From Gammaproteobacteria bacterium (lineage in GTDB: Bacteria; Pseudomonadota; Gammaproteobacteria; Chromatiales; Chromatiaceae): a stretch of 44,657 bases of DNA. The DNA lies in assembly GCA_018812525.1 (NCBI GenBank), contig JAHJDE010000141.1:1-44657 (forward strand), read 5' to 3'. The notes below the pieces were generated by a model that saw only the letters and a program-made list of their open reading frames with translations, was not told the origin of the DNA and searched no databases. The position numbers and the translations under genes were made by a program. This document shows positions 7,279 through 16,805 of this stretch, piece after piece (position 1 is the first letter of the stretch; each line of letters begins with the position of its first letter).

Positions 7279-7356
7279 GTTTCACCTGTTTTTCCAATCG
7301 GCGTATTCTCCCACTAGCGGCGCCGGGGTGCACTGGTGCCAATATCCGGGAATGGT

Positions 7357-7476
7357 ATAACTATTCAGATTGCTCCCAAAAAATGCGATTTTTTGGGGCG
7401 ACCAAAGGACGGAAACCCCTAAAGCTATGGAGTAACCATTCAAATCGCCCAAAACCGGGGCGACCTGAATAGTTAC
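7357..7476. mobile_element. GTAA-ended MITE, copy 1, with 8-bp target duplication
   Basis: This 120-bp non-coding element begins ATAACTATTCAG and ends CTGAATAGTTAC. It is flanked by perfect direct repeats GGAATGGT (7349-7356 and 7477-7484). Inside are two stem-loops, one around 7375-7400 and a second GTAACCATTCA..TGAATAGTTAC unit at 7432-7476, so it may be a nested or doubled copy. It lies in the yjbQ/recG divergent promoter region. Confidence 0.88.
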
Positions 7477-7513
7477 GGAATGGTTAACCTCTCATAATCC
7501 TTGGCGGGACATT

Positions 7514-9589
7514 GTGGACAAGAAAACACCGCTGAACAGCCTGCGTGGCGTGGGGCCGAAAAATGCCCAACGCTTAGGAAAACTGGGGCTCCAATGCGTC
7601 GAGGATGTCCTTTTCCATCTGCCGCTGCGATACCAGGACCGCACCCGCGTGGTGCCGATCGGCTGCCTGCGGGCGGGCGATCAGGCGGCGATCGAGGGTG
7701 TAATCGAGCTGGCCCAGATCAGGCTTGGCCGGCGCCGCTCCCTGCTGGTTCAATTCACTGATGGCACAGGCTCCATTCTGCTGCGTTTCTTTCACTTCAC
7801 CAGTGCCCAGCGAAATGCCTTGCAACCGGGGGTGCGGCTGCGTTGCTTTGGCGAGGCGCGTAACGGTCCGGCCTCTCTGGAATTGGTCCACCCCGATTAC
7901 AGGAGGCTTGACGAGCGGGCGCCCCAGGCGGTGGAGGAGAATCTGACGCCTGTCTACCCCAGCACCGAAGGTTTGCACCAACTCGCCTGGCGTGACATCA
8001 CCGGACAGGCGCTAGGGTTGTTGCAAAGGGATGAACTCTCGCTGCCGGAGCTGATTCCCAGTGAGTTTCTGGCAGCCCAGGGATTTCCCTCCCTCAAGGA
8101 AGCCCTGCTGTTCATGCACCGCCCCCCACCTGATGTGCCAATGTCGACCCTTGATGAGGGAAATATACCGGCCCGGAACCGCCTGGTATTCGAGGAGTTA
8201 CTGGCACATCAACTCTCCTTGCGGTTGCTGCGCCGTAAGCAGCGCGGCAAATCCGCGCCTCCCTTGCGGGGTGACGGGCGATTACAGCAAAGGCTGCTGT
8301 CCAGATTGCCCTTCGCCTTGACCCAGGCACAACAACGGGTAGTGGAGGAGATCGCAGCCGACCTGGTCAGTAACCATCCCATGTTGCGCCTGGTCCAGGG
8401 CGATGTGGGTTGCGGCAAGACCCTGGTCGCCGTCATTGCCGCCTTGCAGGCGATCGAGGCGGGATTCCAGGCCGCCCTCATGGCCCCCACCGAACTGCTG
8501 GCGGAGCAGCATGTCCGCAATCTCTCCGGATGGCTGGTGCCCTTGGGGGTTGAGCCGGGCTATCTCAGCAGTCGCTCCAAGGGCACGGCACGCCGTGAAC
8601 AACTGGCACGACTGGCCGGTGGCGAGTGCCGCCTGGTGGTGGGGACCCACGCCCTGTTTCAGGAAGAGGTCGCCTTTCATGCGCTCGGCCTTGTGATTAT
8701 CGACGAGCAGCACCGCTTCGGGGTCCACCAACGCCTGGCCCTGCACGAAAAAGGGAGGGCGGCGGAGCTTCCCCATCAGTTGGTAATGACGGCCACGCCC
8801 ATTCCCCGGACCCTGGCCATGACCGCCTATGCTGATCTGGATCTCTCTGTCATCGACGAGCTGCCCCCAGGCCGCACCCCGGTCAGGACAGTGGCCCTGC
8901 CCGACAATCGTCGCGATGAGGTGGTGGCGCGGGTGGCCAAGGCCTGCCTGGGTGGACGCCAGGCCTATTGGGTCTGCACCCTGATCGAGGAATCGGAGGC
9001 CTTGCAGTGCCAAGCCGCGGAGGAGACGGCCGCCGGGCTTGCATTAGCCCTGCCGGAGCTATGCATCGGCCTGGTCCACGGACGCCTGAAGGCGGTCGAG
9101 AAGGAGGCGGTGATGGCCCGGTTCAAGGCGGGCGAGGTTCATCTTCTGGTGGCCACCACGGTGATTGAGGTCGGGGTAGATGTCCCCAATGCCAGTCTGA
9201 TGATCATCGAAAACCCCGAGCGCCTGGGGCTCGCCCAGCTCCATCAACTGCGCGGCCGGGTCGGCCGGGGTTCGGTGGAGAGTCACTGCCTGCTGCTCTA
9301 TCACTCCCCCCTGGGCGAGAACGCCCGCACCCGGCTGGAGGTGATGCGCGAGACCAACGACGGCTTTGTCGTGGCACGAAAGGACCTGGAACTGCGCGGC
9401 CCCGGCGAGGTGTTGGGAACGCGCCAGACCGGCCTGGCGCAGATGCGCATCGCCGATCTTCTGCGTGACCAGGCTTGGATTCCTCTGGCCCAGGCAGCAG
9501 CCGATCGGTTGCTGGACCAGTATCCCGAACAGGCAGGACGCCTGATCGATCGCTGGGTGGGCAATCGCCTGGATTACGGGCGCGTGTAA
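7514..9589 (+). CDS. recG: ATP-dependent DNA helicase RecG
   Basis: This 691-residue RecG catalyses branch migration and regression of stalled replication forks and Holliday junctions. An N-terminal wedge/OB domain starts LNSLRGVGPKNAQRLGKLG. The helicase core follows with GDVGCGKT (Walker A, ~residue 295), DEQH (motif II), TATPIPRT (motif III), TTVIEVGVDVPNA and QLRGRVGRG (motif VI). The length matches the family. Translation starts at GTG 7514; no upstream ATG gives a better N-terminus. ubiC follows after about 40 nt. Confidence 0.97.
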   Translation: MDKKTPLNSLRGVGPKNAQRLGKLGLQCVEDVLFHLPLRYQDRTRVVPIGCLRAGDQAAIEGVIELAQIRLGRRRSLLVQFTDGTGSILLRFFHFTSAQRNALQPGVRLRCFGEARNGPASLELVHPDYRRLDERAPQAVEENLTPVYPSTEGLHQLAWRDITGQALGLLQRDELSLPELIPSEFLAAQGFPSLKEALLFMHRPPPDVPMSTLDEGNIPARNRLVFEELLAHQLSLRLLRRKQRGKSAPPLRGDGRLQQRLLSRLPFALTQAQQRVVEEIAADLVSNHPMLRLVQGDVGCGKTLVAVIAALQAIEAGFQAALMAPTELLAEQHVRNLSGWLVPLGVEPGYLSSRSKGTARREQLARLAGGECRLVVGTHALFQEEVAFHALGLVIIDEQHRFGVHQRLALHEKGRAAELPHQLVMTATPIPRTLAMTAYADLDLSVIDELPPGRTPVRTVALPDNRRDEVVARVAKACLGGRQAYWVCTLIEESEALQCQAAEETAAGLALALPELCIGLVHGRLKAVEKEAVMARFKAGEVHLLVATTVIEVGVDVPNASLMIIENPERLGLAQLHQLRGRVGRGSVESHCLLLYHSPLGENARTRLEVMRETNDGFVVARKDLELRGPGEVLGTRQTGLAQMRIADLLRDQAWIPLAQAAADRLLDQYPEQAGRLIDRWVGNRLDYGRV

Positions 9590-9628
9590 AGGGTGAGATA
9601 ATCCTGGCCTTTGGCTAGCAGACCGTTT

Positions 9629-10225
9629 ATGACCGCATTTCGCATCCATCGACCGCTCATGCGTGAACCGCGTTGGTTTTTGCCGGGACAGGGACCTGGG
9701 GATGCTCCCCCGGTGGGCGCCTTGGACTGGCTACAGGATGCCGGCTCTCTGACGCAGCGCCTGCGCGCGGCCTGTGGCGGCGTTTTTAGTGTCCATGTGA
9801 GGCGCCAAGAGTGGTCCCGGGGTTACCCCGGTGAGGCGAAGCTGCTTGGCATAAAACCCTTTCGCGCCGCTTTGGTGCGTGAGGTTGAGTTGCGTTGCAA
9901 CGGGAGGGCCTGGGTCTTTGCCCGGACCCTTATTCCGATATCCAGCCTCCGGGGGGCCGCGCGGCGGCTGAAGATGCTCGGCAACAGGCCCTTGGGCGCA
10001 GTGCTGTTCGCCGATCCGAGCCTGACACGGGGAGAGACCCAGTTCGTATATTTGACGCCAGGGCAGTCCCTCTTCGAATCAGCCGTGGCGGGGCTCAGTG
10101 CCAAACCGGACGGCCTATGGGGCCGCCGAACCCTCTTTCACCTCGCCGGCAAGCCCCTCTTGGTGAACGAGATATTCCTGCCGGGGATACCCCCGGATAA
10201 AGAGGTTGGCCATGCTGAGCCTTGA
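9629..10225 (+). CDS. ubiC: Chorismate lyase
   Basis: UbiC converts chorismate to 4-hydroxybenzoate and pyruvate, the first committed step of ubiquinone synthesis. The 198-residue product has the family pattern [13 protein letters not shown] near the start, central [10 protein letters not shown] and WVFARTLIP, and a C-terminal [25 protein letters not shown] at 9611 would add six residues; ATG 9629 is preferred. The 3' end overlaps ubiA by 14 nt, the conserved ubiCA operon. Confidence 0.93.
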
Positions 10226-11075
10226 GCGTCTGTCTGCCTATGCCGACCTGATCCGTATCCGTCGCCCCATCGGTATCTACCTCCTGCTGTGGCCCGCCCT
10301 CTGGGGGCTTTGGGTCGCGGGCCAGGGAATACCCGACTGGCGCGTGCTGCTGATCTTCGTGCTGGGCGCGGTATTCATGCGCTCTGCCGGCTGCGCCATT
10401 AACGACTTCGCCGACCGCCATATCGACGGCCATGTAGAACGCACTTGCACTCGTCCCCTTGCGACCGGTGCCGTTAGCCCGCGCGAGGCCCTGCTTGTAT
10501 TCACGGTCCTCAGCCTGACCGCCTTCGGTCTGGTGCTGTTTCTCAATTGGCTGACCGTTGCCATGTCCTTCGTCGCAGTTTTTCTTGCGGCCCTCTACCC
10601 CTTCATGAAACGCTACACCCATCTACCCCAATTGGTGCTTGGCATGGCGTTTGGCTGGGCGGTGCCCATGGCCTTTACCACCCTGACCGGGACCGTGGCG
10701 CTGGAGGGATGGCTGCTCTACCTGGCCACGGTAATCTGGGCACTGATCTACGATACTGAATATGCCATGGTTGACCGGGAGGATGACTTCCGTATCGGCG
10801 TCAAATCCACCGCCATTCTGTTCGGCGAACAGGACCGCCTCATCATCGGCCTGTTGCAAGCGGTGATGCTGTCGCTGCTGCTGGCGATGGGTCTGCTGGC
10901 AGGACTGGGGGTCTTTTACTACCTGGGATTTGGACTGGCCACCGCGTCCGCCATCTATCAGCAGTACCTGATCCGTAACCGTGAACGCCATGCCTGTTTT
11001 ACGGCGTTTTTGAACAACTACTACTTTGGGTTGTTTCTCTTCCTGGGACTCTTGCTGGATTACCTGCCACTATGA
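10212..11075 (+). CDS. ubiA: 4-hydroxybenzoate octaprenyltransferase
   Basis: UbiA attaches the polyprenyl chain to 4-hydroxybenzoate at the inner membrane. The 287-residue product has eight to nine hydrophobic helices and both Asp-rich motifs for Mg-diphosphate: [15 protein letters not shown] (residues ~66-80) and [13 protein letters not shown] (~180-192). It directly uses the UbiC product. ATG 10212 (MLSLERL) is preferred to a TTG at 10206. The next gene starts 4 nt before its stop. Confidence 0.96.
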
Positions 11076-11638
11076 AACTCCGAGCCTTGTTGCTGCTGGC
11101 ATCCCTGTTGCTACCCCCGGTCAACGCATATTCCCAGGCGGCTGTGGGGCAGCCGGAGGTACTTAAGTGGGATGCCCTGGTTCCAGAAGACTTCAATCCC
11201 GACAAACTGTTCGAGAAGTACGAACTCGACAAGATGAAAGACGATGACCCCCGCGCCGATGAATTTCTGCGGGAGATGAAAAAGGTCTGGAAGGCGGCGC
11301 CGGTCGTTGAGGCGATGGAGGGGCGCCTGGTGAAGTTGCCTGGTTTTATCGTGCCCCTGGAGACAGAGGGCGACAGGGTCAGCGAGTTCTTTCTGGTTCC
11401 CTATTTCGGGGCCTGTATCCATGTGCCGCCTCCGCCCGCCAATCAAATGGTCTATGTTGTCATGGAGAAGGGCAAAAGCGTCGAGGTAACGGGTGATATG
11501 TTCGAGGCGGTCTGGGTCACCGGCACTTTACACATCAAAGGGACCAGCAACGAGTTGGGGGATGCGGGTTACATACTCAAGGCTACCGCTACCGAGCCCT
11601 ATAAGGAGGAAGAGGGATCCATCTCGGTCGGGCCTTGA
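11072..11638 (+). CDS. DUF3299 family exported protein
   Basis: This 188-residue protein has a signal peptide ([21 protein letters not shown]). The mature part carries the DUF3299 pattern: [10 protein letters not shown], then [20 protein letters not shown] and a C-terminal [12 protein letters not shown]3299 genes often sit beside DUF2796/ZrgA and ABC-FtsX genes, as here, suggesting a role in periplasmic metal handling; the biochemistry is unknown. It overlaps ubiA by 4 nt, so it may be expressed with ubiCA. Confidence 0.82.
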
Positions 11639-11747
11639 TGCCTATGGCGGTGCCCTTTCGGTGAAAGTGGTAAGATCGCCGTAAAAATTGGCATGATAAT
11701 TATTTTTCGATTCAGCGTATTTATCTCTCGTTTATTGGAGTCATGAA

Positions 11748-11945
11748 ATGAAAGTTCAGGAAATCAAGGATATCGCCCTGGGGATGGGGCTGAAGCCGGG
11801 CCGCATGAAAAAGCTCGACCTGGTGCGTAGCATCCAGCGTCATGAAGGTCACAACGATTGCTTCGGGACGAATAGGGTCGCGCATTGCAACGAAATGACC
11901 TGCCTCTGGCGCGCGGATTGCCTGATCGAGGCCAAGAGCGCCTGA
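11748..11945 (+). CDS. Small SAP-domain-like protein
   Basis: This 65-residue protein starts MKVQEIKDIALGMGLKPGRM, a helix-turn-helix resembling the SAP or Rho-N fold that binds nucleic acid. The second half carries four cysteines (about residues 38, 48, 53 and 59) that could bind a metal. A ribosome-binding site (TTGGAG) lies about 8 nt upstream. It sits between the DUF3299 gene and the ZrgA operon and is probably part of this recurrent neighbourhood. Function unknown. Confidence 0.7.
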   Translation: MKVQEIKDIALGMGLKPGRMKKLDLVRSIQRHEGHNDCFGTNRVAHCNEMTCLWRADCLIEAKSA

Positions 11946-11991
11946 GGCAGCGCCGTTCCATCTTCCCCAAAGGCGCTGGTTTTGTTTCGTT

Positions 11992-12070
11992 GTAACTATT
12001 CACCCCCCCTCCCCAACCCTCCCCCTGCAAAGGGGGAGGGGTCAATTTCCGAATTGAGCTGAATAGTTAC
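11992..12070. mobile_element. GTAA-ended MITE, copy 2, with 8-bp target duplication
   Basis: This 79-bp element begins GTAACTATTCA and ends TGAATAGTTAC. It is flanked by perfect GTTTCGTT repeats at 11984-11991 and 12071-12078. Its interior is unrelated to the other copies: a C-rich tract and a CCTCCCC..GGGGAGG hairpin. It sits about 50 bp upstream of the zrgA-like operon, probably near its promoter. Confidence 0.9.
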
Positions 12071-12119
12071 GTTTCGTTATACTTGTACCCCTTCGACCCC
12101 TCTCAAATGGAGCATGGGC

Positions 12120-12668
12120 ATGCGAAGCCAGCGCCGACTCTCTCTCATTTTTTTCCTTTCCCTCTATTACGGTCTGATCGCTCAAGCAGAGGTGCATCGG
12201 CTCCAGGGCGCCCATGTCCACGGCGAGGCCAGGCTCGACATTGCCCAGGAGGGCTCCGATCTGATCCTTGAATTTTACTCGCCGGCCATGGATATCCTGG
12301 GTTTCGAGCACGAACCGGCCGACGAGACAGAGCGCAAAATGGCTCAGGAAGCAGAGAAGAGGCTGCGAGCGGCTGATACCCTCTTCAAGCTGCCCGAAAA
12401 TGCCGAATGCAAGCTAACCCTCGCCGAGGTCAAGGCGGGCGGAGAAATGCATGAGGCTGGGAAAGGGCGCCAGGAGGAAGGGGGGCATCGTGATTACGAG
12501 GCACAATATGCCTTCCGATGTTCGGGAGAGTTTCCGGCCGGGATCGAGGTCCTCCTGTTCGATGCCTTCCCCTCCCTGCACAGGATCCACGCCCAACTGG
12601 CCGGACCGGACGGCCAGAAATCGGTCGAACTTTCTGCGAGCGAAAACCGGATCGAGTTCCGGCAATAA
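12120..12668 (+). CDS. ZrgA/DUF2796 family metal-uptake protein
   Basis: This 182-residue exported protein has a signal sequence (RRLSLIFFLSLYYGLIAQAE) followed by LQGAHVHGEARLDIAQEG, the DUF2796 N-terminal hallmark with metal-liganding histidines. A charged His/Glu stretch (residues ~115-130) may also bind metal. ZrgA of Vibrio is a periplasmic zinc-uptake component working with an ABC transporter, and here the ABC ATPase starts inside its stop codon. ATG 12114 is an alternative start. Zinc as the substrate is inferred from the family. Confidence 0.85.
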   Translation: MRSQRRLSLIFFLSLYYGLIAQAEVHRLQGAHVHGEARLDIAQEGSDLILEFYSPAMDILGFEHEPADETERKMAQEAEKRLRAADTLFKLPENAECKLTLAEVKAGGEMHEAGKGRQEEGGHRDYEAQYAFRCSGEFPAGIEVLLFDAFPSLHRIHAQLAGPDGQKSVELSASENRIEFRQ

Positions 12669-13366
12669 TGGGAGCAGAGCCGCCTGTTGTCGATATACGC
12701 GACCTCGAATATACCTGGCGCGGGGCGGCCGGACCGATCCTGAGGATTGCCCGGCTTTACCTCGCGCCGGCTGAACGCATGTTCGTCAAGGGGCCGAGCG
12801 GGAGTGGCAAGAGCACCCTGCTCGGCTTGGTGGCTGGCGTCAATGTACCCTGCTCCGGTACGGTACGGGTACTGGATCGGTCGCTGGGCAGCATGGGCGG
12901 CAGCACCCGCGACCAATTCCGTGCCGACCATATGGGTGTCATTTTCCAGCAGTTCAATCTGCTGCCTTACCTCTCGGTGATTGAAAATGTCCTTCTACCC
13001 TGTCGTTTTTCCAGGCGGCGCCTGGAAAATGCCTCGGCACGGGGCGATGCCCTGACGGAAGCGAAGCGCCTGCTGGAGCATCTCGATATTGGTCCTGATC
13101 TCTTACATCAGCGGGCCTCCGATCTCAGCGTCGGCCAGCAGCAGCGGGTGGCTGCGGCACGGGCACTGATCGGGGGACCTGAGCTGGTGATCGCAGATGA
13201 ACCCACCTCATCCCTGGACGCCGACCGCCGGAGTGCCTTCGTGAAATTGCTATTCCGGGAATGTGGGGAGACGGGATCGGCACTGATGTTCGTCAGCCAC
13301 GACGACGCCTTGGAACCCCTGTTCGACCGGTCCGTCCACTTGGACGAGATCAACGAGGCCGGCTGA
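12668..13366 (+). CDS. ABC transporter ATPase (LolD/MacB type)
   Basis: This 232-residue ATPase has Walker A GPSGSGKST (~residues 41-49), a Q-loop in VIFQQFNLLPYLSVIENV, ABC signature LSVGQQQRV and Walker B LVIADEPTSSLD. The FNLLPYL-type Q-loop region and pairing with an FtsX-domain permease place it in the LolD/MacB/FtsE class. ATG 12668 shares its A with the stop of the upstream zrgA-like gene and the permease starts in its own stop, so the three are translationally coupled. Confidence 0.92.
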   Translation: MGAEPPVVDIRDLEYTWRGAAGPILRIARLYLAPAERMFVKGPSGSGKSTLLGLVAGVNVPCSGTVRVLDRSLGSMGGSTRDQFRADHMGVIFQQFNLLPYLSVIENVLLPCRFSRRRLENASARGDALTEAKRLLEHLDIGPDLLHQRASDLSVGQQQRVAAARALIGGPELVIADEPTSSLDADRRSAFVKLLFRECGETGSALMFVSHDDALEPLFDRSVHLDEINEAG

Positions 13367-14625
13367 TGGCAATCTTCTCCTTGGCCTGGAAGAGTCTGCT
13401 AAACCGGCGCCACTCTGCCCTGTTGACCCTGTTCTCCATCGCCTTGAGCTGCACCCTGCTGCTGGGAGTGGAGCGCATCCGGCACGAGACCCGGCAAGCC
13501 TTCACTCAAAGCGTCTCCGGGACGGATCTGGTGGTGGGCGCCCGAAGCGGGGCCGTGAATCTGCTGCTCTACTCGGTCTTCCACATCGGCAATCCCACCA
13601 ACAACATCTCCTGGCAGAGTTATCAGGAGCTTGCATCGCACCCCAAGGTGGCCTGGACCATCCCCATCTCCCTGGGGGATTCCCATCGGGGCTATCGGGT
13701 GGTAGGCACCAGCGTCGATTTCTTTACCCACTACAAATACGGCGCCAAGCGTCCGTTGACCTTCTCCGATGGCAGGGCCTTCGACGGGGTCTATGAGGCG
13801 GTGGCCGGGTCCGAGGTGGCGAAGACCCTCGGCTACCACCTGGATCAACGGATCGTCATTGCCCATGGAGCGGGAAACCTGAGCTTCTCCGAGCATGGGG
13901 ACAAGCCCTTCCGCCTGACCGGGATTCTAGCGCCGACCGGAACCCCAGTAGACCGATCCCTCTTCGTCTCTCTGCAAGGCATTACCGCGATCCATGTCGG
14001 CTGGCAAGGCGGCGCCCCGGTTCCTGGCCTGAATCTCTCACCCGCCATGGCGGCAAAACTGGCAAAGGAACCGGACGATATCACCGCCTTCCTGGTCGGC
14101 TTGAAATCGAAGATCGCCACCTTCAACCTGCAACGCCACATCAATGAATACCCCCAGGAACCCCTGACGGCAGTCTTGCCCGGCGTCGCCCTGGGTGAAC
14201 TGTGGGGCATGATGGCCCTGGCTGAGAAGGCCCTGATGGCCATGTCCGCCATGGTGGTTCTGGTGGGGCTTGTCGGTATGCTGAGCCTGATGCTGAGCGC
14301 CCTCAACGAACGGCGGCGGGAGATGGCGATACTGCGCGCCCTCGGGGCGAACCCTTGGCAAATTCTGCTGCTGGTAGTAGGTGAATCCCTCTTCCTCACC
14401 CTCTCGGGAATTCTGGCCGGGCTGCTGCTGCTCTACGCCCTGCTCTGGTTTGCCCAGCCCCTCATTCAAAGCCGTTTGGGGCTCTATATGCCCCTGAACC
14501 CACCCGGCTCAAGGGAAGGTTTGCTGATGGCCGCTGTGGTCCTGGCCGGCCTGCTGGCGGGCCTTGTCCCCGGTCTGCGCGCTTACTATTACTCGCTTGC
14601 CGACGGTATGAATATTCGAGTTTAG
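13366..14625 (+). CDS. FtsX-domain ABC permease
   Basis: This 419-residue inner-membrane protein has one N-terminal TM helix (residues ~15-35), a large periplasmic domain (MacB-PCD-like, ~36-290) and three C-terminal TM helices with the FtsX fold. The cytoplasmic loop ALNERRREMAILRALGANPWQI is typical of the family. With the preceding ATPase it forms a mechanotransmission-type ABC complex. The ZrgA and DUF3299 neighbours suggest it acts on a periplasmic metal-related process rather than lipoprotein export; this is inference. Confidence 0.9.
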   Translation: MAIFSLAWKSLLNRRHSALLTLFSIALSCTLLLGVERIRHETRQAFTQSVSGTDLVVGARSGAVNLLLYSVFHIGNPTNNISWQSYQELASHPKVAWTIPISLGDSHRGYRVVGTSVDFFTHYKYGAKRPLTFSDGRAFDGVYEAVAGSEVAKTLGYHLDQRIVIAHGAGNLSFSEHGDKPFRLTGILAPTGTPVDRSLFVSLQGITAIHVGWQGGAPVPGLNLSPAMAAKLAKEPDDITAFLVGLKSKIATFNLQRHINEYPQEPLTAVLPGVALGELWGMMALAEKALMAMSAMVVLVGLVGMLSLMLSALNERRREMAILRALGANPWQILLLVVGESLFLTLSGILAGLLLLYALLWFAQPLIQSRLGLYMPLNPPGSREGLLMAAVVLAGLLAGLVPGLRAYYYSLADGMNIRV

Positions 14626-14655
14626 GCTCTCCCTGGTGAAAACGAGGATTCTAGG

Positions 14656-15540
14656 ATGAAAAAGTTAATGCTCAGCCTGCTGATTCTTCTGATCAGCATC
14701 GGCCTTTATCTGGCATCCTTTGTCGAGATTCCTTTCGTAGACAAAGAGTCAAACGCCTACTTCACCGGAACGCTCAAATCTGCAACCCTGGCCTACGCGA
14801 CCACCCGAGGGGTGAACGCTGTCGTCTCAGTACTCAAGGAATCTGAGGTCAATGTCTCGCCTGCTGGCGTCGGTCTGACCATCGCGGCGGGGCAGATACT
14901 CGACCCCATCGACGACATGACCGAGCGGCTCTCCTCCGTCATCGTCATGGCCATCGTCTCCCTGGGCATCCAGAAGATCGGCTTTGAATTGGGCGCGGCC
15001 TTCAGCTTCAAACTGGTTGCGGCCCTGATTCTTCTCTTTATTCCCGCCCTCTGGCTGAATCTGCGTGCGCCCAATCCCCTGCTCCGCCTAGCGGTACGGT
15101 TTTGTTATTTCCTGATAGTCTTGCGCTTCCTGCTGCCGATCTCCTCCCTGGTCAACGACTACCTCTACGACAACCTGTTCAAGGCCAGGATTGAGGAATC
15201 AGTAAGGAGCCTCTCGGTGATCTCCTCGGATTACAACGAGATGAGCAGGATGGAGCCAGGGGGGGAAAGGGGCTTCTTCTCCTCCCTGACGGGGGCGGTA
15301 GGGACCGGGATAGAGAAGACCAAACAGGCATTTTCCCGCGTTCTGGAAAATGCAGAGAGCATCATCAGCTCCCTGTTGAACCTGACGACCCTCTACGTTG
15401 CCCTGTTCATTATCCAGGTACTGTTCATTCCACTGGGGATGCTCTGGCTATTGATGGCTCTCGCCCGGTCTCCAGCCACCAATCTCCTGACGGATCGGGT
15501 CTTGGCGCTGTTCGGCAGGCCGGATGTGAGTGAGACCTGA
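14656..15540 (+). CDS. Multi-pass membrane protein of unknown function
   Basis: This 294-residue protein is not recognised. It has an N-terminal hydrophobic segment (residues ~4-20), a helical hairpin around 95-140, a further helix at ~145-165, and a last helix at ~245-270. A soluble, charged section lies at ~170-235. It starts 30 nt after the FtsX permease and could be co-transcribed with the transporter operon. Confidence 0.75.
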   Translation: MKKLMLSLLILLISIGLYLASFVEIPFVDKESNAYFTGTLKSATLAYATTRGVNAVVSVLKESEVNVSPAGVGLTIAAGQILDPIDDMTERLSSVIVMAIVSLGIQKIGFELGAAFSFKLVAALILLFIPALWLNLRAPNPLLRLAVRFCYFLIVLRFLLPISSLVNDYLYDNLFKARIEESVRSLSVISSDYNEMSRMEPGGERGFFSSLTGAVGTGIEKTKQAFSRVLENAESIISSLLNLTTLYVALFIIQVLFIPLGMLWLLMALARSPATNLLTDRVLALFGRPDVSET

Positions 15541-15640
15541 GCGACTGTCAGGCCCGCTGCCCACCACCGGGAATAGGCCAGGCGGACATTTCCTTTCCGC
15601 TGGAGGGACGGCAGGAATATTACCCATAAGGAGGCCAGCC

Positions 15641-16027
15641 ATGCGTTCATTTCTTATCATCCTTTCCCTCGCCCTGGCCTTCCCCGTCCAAGCGGCCATC
15701 TACCGTTGTGAAACGCCGGCGGGTGCCAGCTTTCAGGAATCGCCCTGTGCCGAAGGGGCATCCACTGAGATCAGGGTCAAGGATTACCGGATCGGCACCC
15801 GCGCCCTGCCTAAGCTGGACCTGGGTCTCGATAAGGTACCCCGCCACCGCCCAAGGAGCTACATGCAGAAGGCCCGGAAACAAAACGACCGGGCCTGCTT
15901 TTCCAAGAGACAGCAACTGGAGACCTTGCAATGGAAACTACGGCACGGCTACAAGGCAAGCGCTGGGGAACAGATGCGGCAACGGCGCCGGCAGATCGAG
16001 GACTATATGCGGACCTTTTGCCGCTGA
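15641..16027 (+). CDS. DUF4124-like exported protein
   Basis: This 128-residue protein has a signal peptide (MRSFLIILSLALAFPVQA) followed by IYRCETPAGASFQESPC, the short DUF4124 pattern with two cysteines. The rest is basic and helical (KRQQLETLQWKLR..). ATG 15641 has an excellent Shine-Dalgarno (AAGGAGG). DUF4124 proteins are common periplasmic proteins without an assigned role. Confidence 0.78.
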   Translation: MRSFLIILSLALAFPVQAAIYRCETPAGASFQESPCAEGASTEIRVKDYRIGTRALPKLDLGLDKVPRHRPRSYMQKARKQNDRACFSKRQQLETLQWKLRHGYKASAGEQMRQRRRQIEDYMRTFCR

Positions 16028-16058
16028 TCGGTTATCAAGGCCGGCCGGGCCTCGTTGT

Positions 16059-16089
16059 GCGGTTCATCCCTGAACCACAAGGCTCTTGC
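16059..16089 (-). repeat. Dispersed hairpin repeat, partial copy
   Basis: This 31-bp sequence is the near-identical reverse complement of about positions 7-39, including the GGTTCA-TCCC-TGAACC hairpin. It lies between the convergent DUF4124 and nudE genes, where a hairpin may also serve as a weak terminator. Confidence 0.8.
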
Positions 16090-16126
16090 CTGGAGAAACG
16101 ATGCGCCCGCGTCGACGGTCGGCCGG

Positions 16127-16672
16127 TTACTCCATGCCCAACCGCTGTTTCAACAGCAAAAGGGCCAGGATCGACCGTGCCTCGGTAAAGTCGGGGCGGG
16201 TCAGTAGAATGTGGCTGTCCGCCAGGCGCCAGGGGATGACTTCGATGAACTCGGGCTCGTCCCCTTCGATGCGGTTTTCGTATAAATCACGCGCGACCAG
16301 CATGTGGGTGGTGTGTTGCAGGTAGCCGGGGGCGAGGGTAACGGAGTGGAGCGGTTCGATGATGCGCGCCCCGTAGCCGGTCTCTTCCTGGATCTCGCGG
16401 TCGGCGGCCTGTTCTGCCGTCTCGCCGGGTTCGATGTGCCCCTTGGGAAAGGCCAGTTCGTAGCGGTCCATGCCGGCGGCATATTCGCGTATGAGGAGAA
16501 TGGTCTCCGCATCGAACAGGGGCACCACCAGTACCGCCCCCTCCGGTGAGCCGAGGATGCGCTGATAGCGCCGGGTGGCGCCGTTGGAGAACTCCAGATC
16601 CAATGCCTGGACGCGAAAGATACCGGTGTTGGCAATGAGCTCGGTCTTGTGGATCTTGGGGGGTGTCGGCAT
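16127..16672 (-). CDS. nudE: ADP compounds hydrolase NudE
   Basis: This 181-residue Nudix hydrolase acts on ADP-ribose, Ap3A, NADH and similar ADP compounds. The Nudix box is complete: GHIEPGETAEQAADREIQEE (about residues 77-96) followed by TGYG. The N-terminus and the RILGSPEGAVLVVPL region match NudE. It is divergent from yrfG, the neighbourhood seen in other gammaproteobacteria, which supports the nudE assignment over other Nudix enzymes. Confidence 0.9.
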   Translation of the reverse strand: MPTPPKIHKTELIANTGIFRVQALDLEFSNGATRRYQRILGSPEGAVLVVPLFDAETILLIREYAAGMDRYELAFPKGHIEPGETAEQAADREIQEETGYGARIIEPLHSVTLAPGYLQHTTHMLVARDLYENRIEGDEPEFIEVIPWRLADSHILLTRPDFTEARSILALLLLKQRLGME

Positions 16673-16712
16673 GGTTTTGGTGGCGAATGCTGTCTTGTAA
16701 GTAAATCCTGTG

Positions 16713-16758
16713 GTAACTATTCAGGTCGCCCGGCTTTTGGGGCGATCTGAATAGTTAC
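16713..16758. mobile_element. GTAA-ended MITE, copy 3, with 8-bp target duplication
   Basis: This 46-bp element is almost only two inverted arms (GTAACTATTCAGGTCGCCC and GGGGCGATCTGAATAGTTAC) around a few bases. It is flanked by perfect ATCCTGTG repeats at 16705-16712 and 16759-16766. It lies in the nudE/yrfG divergent promoter region. Confidence 0.92.
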
Positions 16759-16805
16759 ATCCTGTGTAGAGTTTACCCCCTTACCGAACCCGAGAACCCA
16801 CTTCC

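Follow-up and report, generated by a model that had tools for sequence, protein, structure and literature searches.

The window analysed here, a 44,657-bp stretch of DNA (contig JAHJDE010000141.1, positions 1 to 44,657) from the assembly GCA_018812525.1 of a gammaproteobacterium of the family Chromatiaceae, carries three short sequences that are real mobile elements without a gene of their own, and their mover is most likely a borrowed transposase of the insertion sequence (IS) family IS66. They are very probably type II miniature inverted-repeat transposable elements (MITEs) of ISBst12-like IS66 elements, moved by a transposase acting in trans. All three were found where a preliminary description of this DNA had placed them. 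Their GTAACTATTCA(G) ends are inverted and, as it had also reported, their perfect 8-bp duplications differ from element to element. The elements and their flanks are as follows.

7349-7356, no strand: left copy of the target duplication GGAATGGT
7357-7476, no strand: element 1, a 120-bp MITE of composite type with inverted ends ATAACTATTCAG / GTAACTATTCAG
7432-7476, minus strand: degenerate copy of the 46-bp unit that makes up the right end of element 1, with the internal end GTAACCATTCAA
7477-7484, no strand: right copy of the target duplication GGAATGGT
11984-11991, no strand: left copy of the target duplication GTTTCGTT
11992-12070, no strand: element 2, a 79-bp MITE of C/G-hairpin type, with relatives of 77-154 bp elsewhere in the genome
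12071-12078, no strand: right copy of the target duplication GTTTCGTT
16705-16712, no strand: left copy of the target duplication ATCCTGTG
16713-16758, plus strand: element 3, a 46-bp MITE, near-perfect palindrome with a 19-bp stem, member of the 46-bp family
16759-16766, no strand: right copy of the target duplication ATCCTGTG, which is single at the empty site of a same-genus genome

At up to one mismatch, the window has seven copies of the 11-mer GTAACTATTCA, whereas shuffled sequences have 0.17 on average. The ends are inverted and GTAACTATTCAG-like, as claimed beforehand, but they are not identical, since the left ends of element 1 (ATAACTATTCAG) and element 2 (GTAACTATTCAC) each depart from the 12-mer by one base; an extra internal end lies within element 1 at 7432-7443. 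The insides had been described as different, and this holds only in part: the right 45 bp of element 1 (7432-7476) match the model of the 46-bp family at 60.6 bits, as a degenerate copy, so that elements 1 and 3 have a module in common.

The genome search that had been proposed for the 12-bp ends gave, in the 3.52-Mb draft genome of this organism (215 contigs), 144 sites at up to one mismatch (control: 3), 82 of them exact (control: 0). Of the 144 sites, 100 were listed; the retrieved loci cover these, minus C21:14653, and were the source of 57 end-clusters, all distinct sequences, which were formed from paired ends blind to the flanks, the best-matching pair being then taken for each cluster. 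The 8-bp flanks matched at 8/8 in 37 clusters, at 7/8 in seven and at 6/8 in two (46 of the 57 at 6/8 or better), and at 3/8 or fewer positions in the remaining 11. When the right flanks were swapped 200 times, with the same best-pair choice as for the real clusters, no perfect match was obtained, and the means were 0.04 at 7 and 0.47 at 6. The 37 duplicated 8-mers are all different and contain 55% A+T, against 39% in the loci. Terminal inverted repeats, a duplication of fixed length (8 bp), the lack of a transposase gene, many dispersed copies and an empty site were all found, as is expected of MITEs.

The empty site was obtained by the comparison with relatives that had been suggested. Around 16713-16758, a same-genus genome aligns straight across the site, where the element is absent and ATCCTGTG stands once; this makes the comparison exact for the 46-bp window copy. 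Five other sites were queried in that genome with joined flanks, and two of them were spanned without an element: the site of a 183-bp composite (L090) is gap-free across the junction, with a target 8-mer matching at 6/8, and that of another 46-bp copy (L027) lies in a more diverged alignment. The alignment had diverged at the junction for L094, L106 found a match on one flank plus a short piece, and the joined flanks of L091 had no match in this genome. For window elements 1 and 2, divergence of the corresponding sites prevents a base-exact reading, and the same-genus loci matching them contained no 12-mer at up to two mismatches.

The 46-bp unit consists of two 12-bp ends with 22 bp between them and is a near-perfect palindrome. 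A model of 19 copies gave 72 strand-wise matches at 43 or more places of the own genome (strands merged, free and embedded copies together), a lower bound, as 150 of 3021 initial candidates were scored. The same model found no copy in the same-genus genome and, among 36 other genomes, a single place (43 bp) in one. The 38 distinct units examined comprised 19 free ones, 16 embedded in composites and three that were damaged or unclear; 13 of the free units have perfect repeats, one has a perfect repeat at a one-base offset, four match at 7/8 and one at 6/8. The composites (120-309 bp) have a 46-bp unit as one end, whereas the C/G-hairpin elements (77-154 bp) belong to another family.

Movement of the 46-bp family as a unit is favoured by sequence comparison, since free copies from separate sites share, in two pairs (L095 with L097, and L020 with L114), a derived change that is absent from the 16 embedded units examined. 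It may also be imagined that a longer composite (141-225 bp) jumped and that the 46-bp form was then made in place by slippage from the outer left end to the internal end, which would leave the duplication intact. In composites, some 95 bp or more separate the outer end from the internal end, which repeats it in direct orientation; the A41 variant, seen in 11 of the 19 free units and in none of the 16 embedded ones, could stem from a hybrid junction; and the 29- and 31-bp units of genome G270, described below, resemble slippage-type deletions. However, slippage would have to account for the derived changes of the two pairs, and eight of the 19 free units retain the internal-end base, which it could give solely via a 5-bp match; we consider this route rather unlikely. 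Another view starts from the length of the unit: 46 bp may be too short and stiff for the ends to be looped together as in ordinary transposons, so that movement in a folded form can be envisaged, the extruded hairpin offering a stem that would be one complete transposon end to an IS66-type transposase. This variant appears very doubtful, and we infer that the 46-bp unit moves by itself.

A palindrome of this kind could alternatively have been kept as an RNA hairpin, either a terminator or a regulatory element, the duplications being left from an older spread. The transcript of the 46-bp window element is predicted to form a 19-bp stem (-33.2 kcal/mol, z -10.8), and 13 of 34 sites with perfect duplications lie inside open reading frames (ORFs) of at least 120 amino acids, a share that was 73% for random places in these loci. 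The comparison was made on bare ORFs, spurious ones included, and three of the 37 sites were dropped from it for lying near a locus end. Gene avoidance is nevertheless expected of surviving insertions of any kind, and we read the low share of sites in ORFs as a rough hint that insertions survive, or are preferred, between genes. Moreover, a terminator scan of the three window regions gave no terminator-like site, an Rfam search of the window gave no match at the gathering threshold, and two inverted ends lying close together produce a palindrome in any case. Retention as RNA hairpins is thus very unlikely.

The IS66-type mover put forward in the preliminary description found support in related genomes. 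In four of them (G016, G032, G058 and G068), exact 12-bp ends lie on both sides of an IS66-family transposase, in elements of 1.5-2.3 kb whose own terminal repeats are just 12-15 bp long. PF03050 was detected in all four transposases, and NF033517 over its cut-off in the three that were scanned for it. Seven of the nine copies inspected with both ends have perfect 8-bp duplications (five G058 copies, a 449-bp internal-deletion copy of G058 and a G032 copy). The exact 12-mer was present in 42 of 112 genomes, own included, against 17 of 112 for the reversed control, although many of the 42 have one or two sites, a number that chance can give. Among 29 IS66 loci retrieved, six carry a 12-mer end, with no more than one mismatch, whose position and orientation are plausible; a seventh match was excluded as it lies inside a frame.

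The N-terminal domains of these transposases suggested that a particular branch of the family is concerned. DUF6444 scored over the cut-off in all five scanned end-bearing transposases with a readable N-terminus (G016, G032, G058, G068 and L057 of G003). By comparison, 13 of the 23 IS66 loci without proper ends were scanned, of which nine had LZ_Tnp_IS66 (eight over the cut-off, one just under), three had neither N-terminal domain and one had DUF6444 just under the cut-off. None of the nine LZ_Tnp_IS66 transposases had DUF6444, and at none of the nine loci with this classical N-terminal domain was the 12-mer found at up to one mismatch. The proposed link to IS66 can consequently be maintained at family level and narrowed to a DUF6444/ISBst12-like branch, and not the classical one, no such partner being found in the own genome. 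The use of DUF6444 as a branch marker is an observation of the present analysis, and the name ISBst12 rests on likeness to ISDge4.

Another transposase family with 8-bp duplications could also have moved the elements, the likeness to IS66 ends being then due to chance. That no cognate IS66 transposase was found in the own genome would agree with this, and transposases looked for at the ends were those of IS66 alone. Such a coincidence is most improbable in view of the full 12-mer on both sides of IS66 transposases in four genomes, of the properly placed ends at six of the 29 IS66 loci, and of the resemblance of the 12-mer to the published ends of ISDge4.

Several observations weigh against the attribution of the window elements to ISBst12-like IS66 elements. 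Eleven of the 57 clusters match at 3/8 or less, some via nesting or decay, and one of them (L020) is counted there solely because of a one-base offset of its perfect repeat. The G016 and G068 copies, two of the nine inspected with both ends, have no matching duplication. The scan of N-terminal domains reached 13 of the 23 IS66 loci without proper ends. If two mismatches are allowed, end-like stretches lie behind two further transposases, that of L045, which has the classical domains and whose end-like stretch adjoins what reads like a GTAAGCGG end, and that of L066, so that the split between branches is clear for close matches alone. The insides of the MITEs had no counterpart in the subterminal DNA of any autonomous element found: when five MITE sequences were compared with four autonomous elements, the terminal 11-15 bp were common, and the other matches (8-10 bp) carry no weight. 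Finally, a PF03050 search of the own genome gave a single IS66 transposase (C178), truncated and without these ends, and a search of the same genome with the G068 transposase as query found nothing.

The C178 transposase was rejected as the mover. Its frame continues into other sequence, its locus contains no 12-mer at up to two mismatches and, at up to three, only three scattered matches, and its PF03050 score (305 bits) is like those of classical members, the end-bearing ones scoring about 155. Owing to the 215 contigs of the assembly, a missing cognate transposase is no proof of absence; the enzyme may have been lost since, or may be missing from the draft. The same-genus genome harbors a broken transposase relative, 57-71% identical in three pieces, with an end CTAACTATTCAG, and one weak fragment elsewhere. 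On the whole, we infer that the ISBst12-like branch moved the copies in the window.

The following path can be proposed. An ISBst12-like IS66 transposase, encoded by a one-gene element, would be supplied in trans and bind two GTAACTATTCAG-like 12-bp terminal inverted repeats. The DNA between these ends would be inserted at a staggered 8-bp cut, the repair of which would give the 8-bp duplication. The content between the ends would matter little, which may be why several unrelated insides use one machinery, and the internal end of the composites (120-309 bp) is apparently used as well.

Predicted genes lie downstream of all three window elements, in agreement with the earlier statement that they are located upstream of genes. 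Element 1 lies between a UPF0047 gene and recG, element 2 is followed by a ZrgA-type gene, and the neighbours of element 3 are a NUDIX gene and a HAD-family gene. At window positions 12054-12083, a promoter-like pair (TTGAGC, 18, TATACT; 9/12) starts in element 2 and ends past the right repeat of that element, shortly before the ZrgA-type gene; one such pair was found against 0.2 in shuffled sequences.

Two features of the autonomous elements are worth noting. In the 2266-bp IS66 element of G058 (L072-L076, e.g. L072:700-1374), the transposase is preceded by another gene, whose match to Dam/D12 adenine methyltransferases is weak and below curated cut-offs; this gene is perhaps a passenger or a regulatory methylase. 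In G016 and G058, the transposase frame stops at the TAG of the right end (CTGAATAGTTAC; L071:2512-2523 and L072:2806-2817), so that the end sequence also codes.

Paired ends were also encountered in more distant bacteria. A pattern scan of named genomes gave 14 loci, seven of them single matches and seven with a second inverted end within 130 bp. Five of the latter were from Mariprofundaceae metagenome-assembled genomes (MAGs), one was from a gammaproteobacterial MAG and one from a MAG labelled Deferribacteres, and their 8-bp duplications, read by eye, were perfect in six cases and matched at 7/8 in one. The presence of paired ends with different insides in these bacteria suggests that the end sequence is used far beyond the bacterial family studied here. 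Within the own genome, a sister set of MITEs, 46, 59 and 127 bp long and ending in sequences of GTAACCGTTCAG / GTATCCGTTCAC type, has perfect 8-bp repeats, some copies being nested in other MITEs; copies are at L093:809-854, L113:363-489, L116:655-713, L126:681-807 and L096:697-823.

Few genomes have two exact ends within an element of 24-54 bp: such elements were found in three of the 369 searched in this class, the own genome among them. A 29-bp unit of G270 (L203, C2:46252-46280) consists of two ends plus 5 bp and has the perfect 8-bp repeat AAGATTTA; the flanks of its 31-, 32- and 63-bp neighbours match at 2/8, 6/8 and 3/8. The 29-bp unit is probably a deletion remnant, as both it and the 31-bp unit read as CTGAA-microhomology deletions of a longer MITE. 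The flanks match at 1/8 for a 39-bp unit and at 8/8 for a 169-bp unit in G133, and at 3/8 for a 46-bp unit (C184) and at 8/8 for a 43-bp unit in G014. At up to one mismatch, the 12-mer shows no or hardly any excess over the control in G270 (16 vs 16) and G133 (18 vs 15). A unit of G026 in which two ends abut (24 bp) had no duplication and was dropped. Two longer arrangements were also observed: L084 (G017 C116) has four copies of GTAACTATTCAG in the same orientation, spaced by 838 bp, as in a head-to-tail repeat, which may be an assembly effect, and L082:758-2037 (G065 C76) spans 1280 bp and has near-identical inverted ends, about 50 bp long, that start with GTAACTATTCAG, no listed frame of more than 115 amino acids wholly inside and no matching 8-bp repeat.

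Our data tie dispersed palindromes to a poorly studied branch of transposases and suggest that the 12-bp end is the main shared requirement. A repeated element of 46 bp is a direct test case for the minimum end spacing of a DDE transposon. They also call for caution, as such hairpins should not be named terminators or repetitive extragenic palindrome (REP)-like elements before 8-bp repeats have been checked for.

In the open-access literature, judged at the level of the search results, no IS66-derived MITE with these ends and no transposon paper with the 12-mer was found; the 12-mer, in either orientation, is in print in a silkworm CRISPR (clustered regularly interspaced short palindromic repeats) method, and seven papers contain it or one of its 11-mers, none of which deals with transposons as far as titles and the opening of abstracts tell. 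The closest autonomous counterpart is ISDge4 of Deinococcus geothermalis (family IS66, ISBst12 group), for which ends GTGACTACTCAGCA / GTAACTGCTCAGCA, an 8-bp repeat and actual movement are documented (PMC12898284). ISDge4 and the ISBst12 group have a single IS66 transposase gene, as in the partner elements found here, ends GTGACTACTCAG / GTAACTGCTCAG and an 8-bp duplication (PMC12898284). ISDge4 is autonomous, whereas the window elements have no transposase gene. In this respect they resemble the type II MITEs of prokaryotes, which are described, in a review whose main text does not mention 'IS66', as short, without transposase, similar to the parent IS at the terminal repeats alone and bordered by direct repeats (PMC10969869). 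The size range quoted there is 50-500 bp, and the 46-bp family falls just below it (PMC10969869). MITEPsy1 of Pseudomonas syringae is likewise short (100 bp), has no gene and was seen to move, but it has a 4-bp duplication and a probable IS5-type parent (PMC3189936). QMITE1 of Coxiella burnetii is graded from about 400 to 39 bp, its terminal and direct repeats being better kept than the core (PMC10969869), and its short copies are presented there as decayed versions of one element, whereas the 46-bp form has 19 free copies with 8-bp repeats among the 38 units examined. The claim that 46 bp is among the smallest mobile units is fair for the repeated 46-bp family, but shorter MITE copies are in print, those of QMITE1 spanning 39 to 400 bp (PMC10969869), and the 29-bp unit of G270 looks like a remnant of a deletion. 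MITEs as such, including copies down to 39 bp, are already known, and what is unusual here is the small, repeated 46-bp unit.

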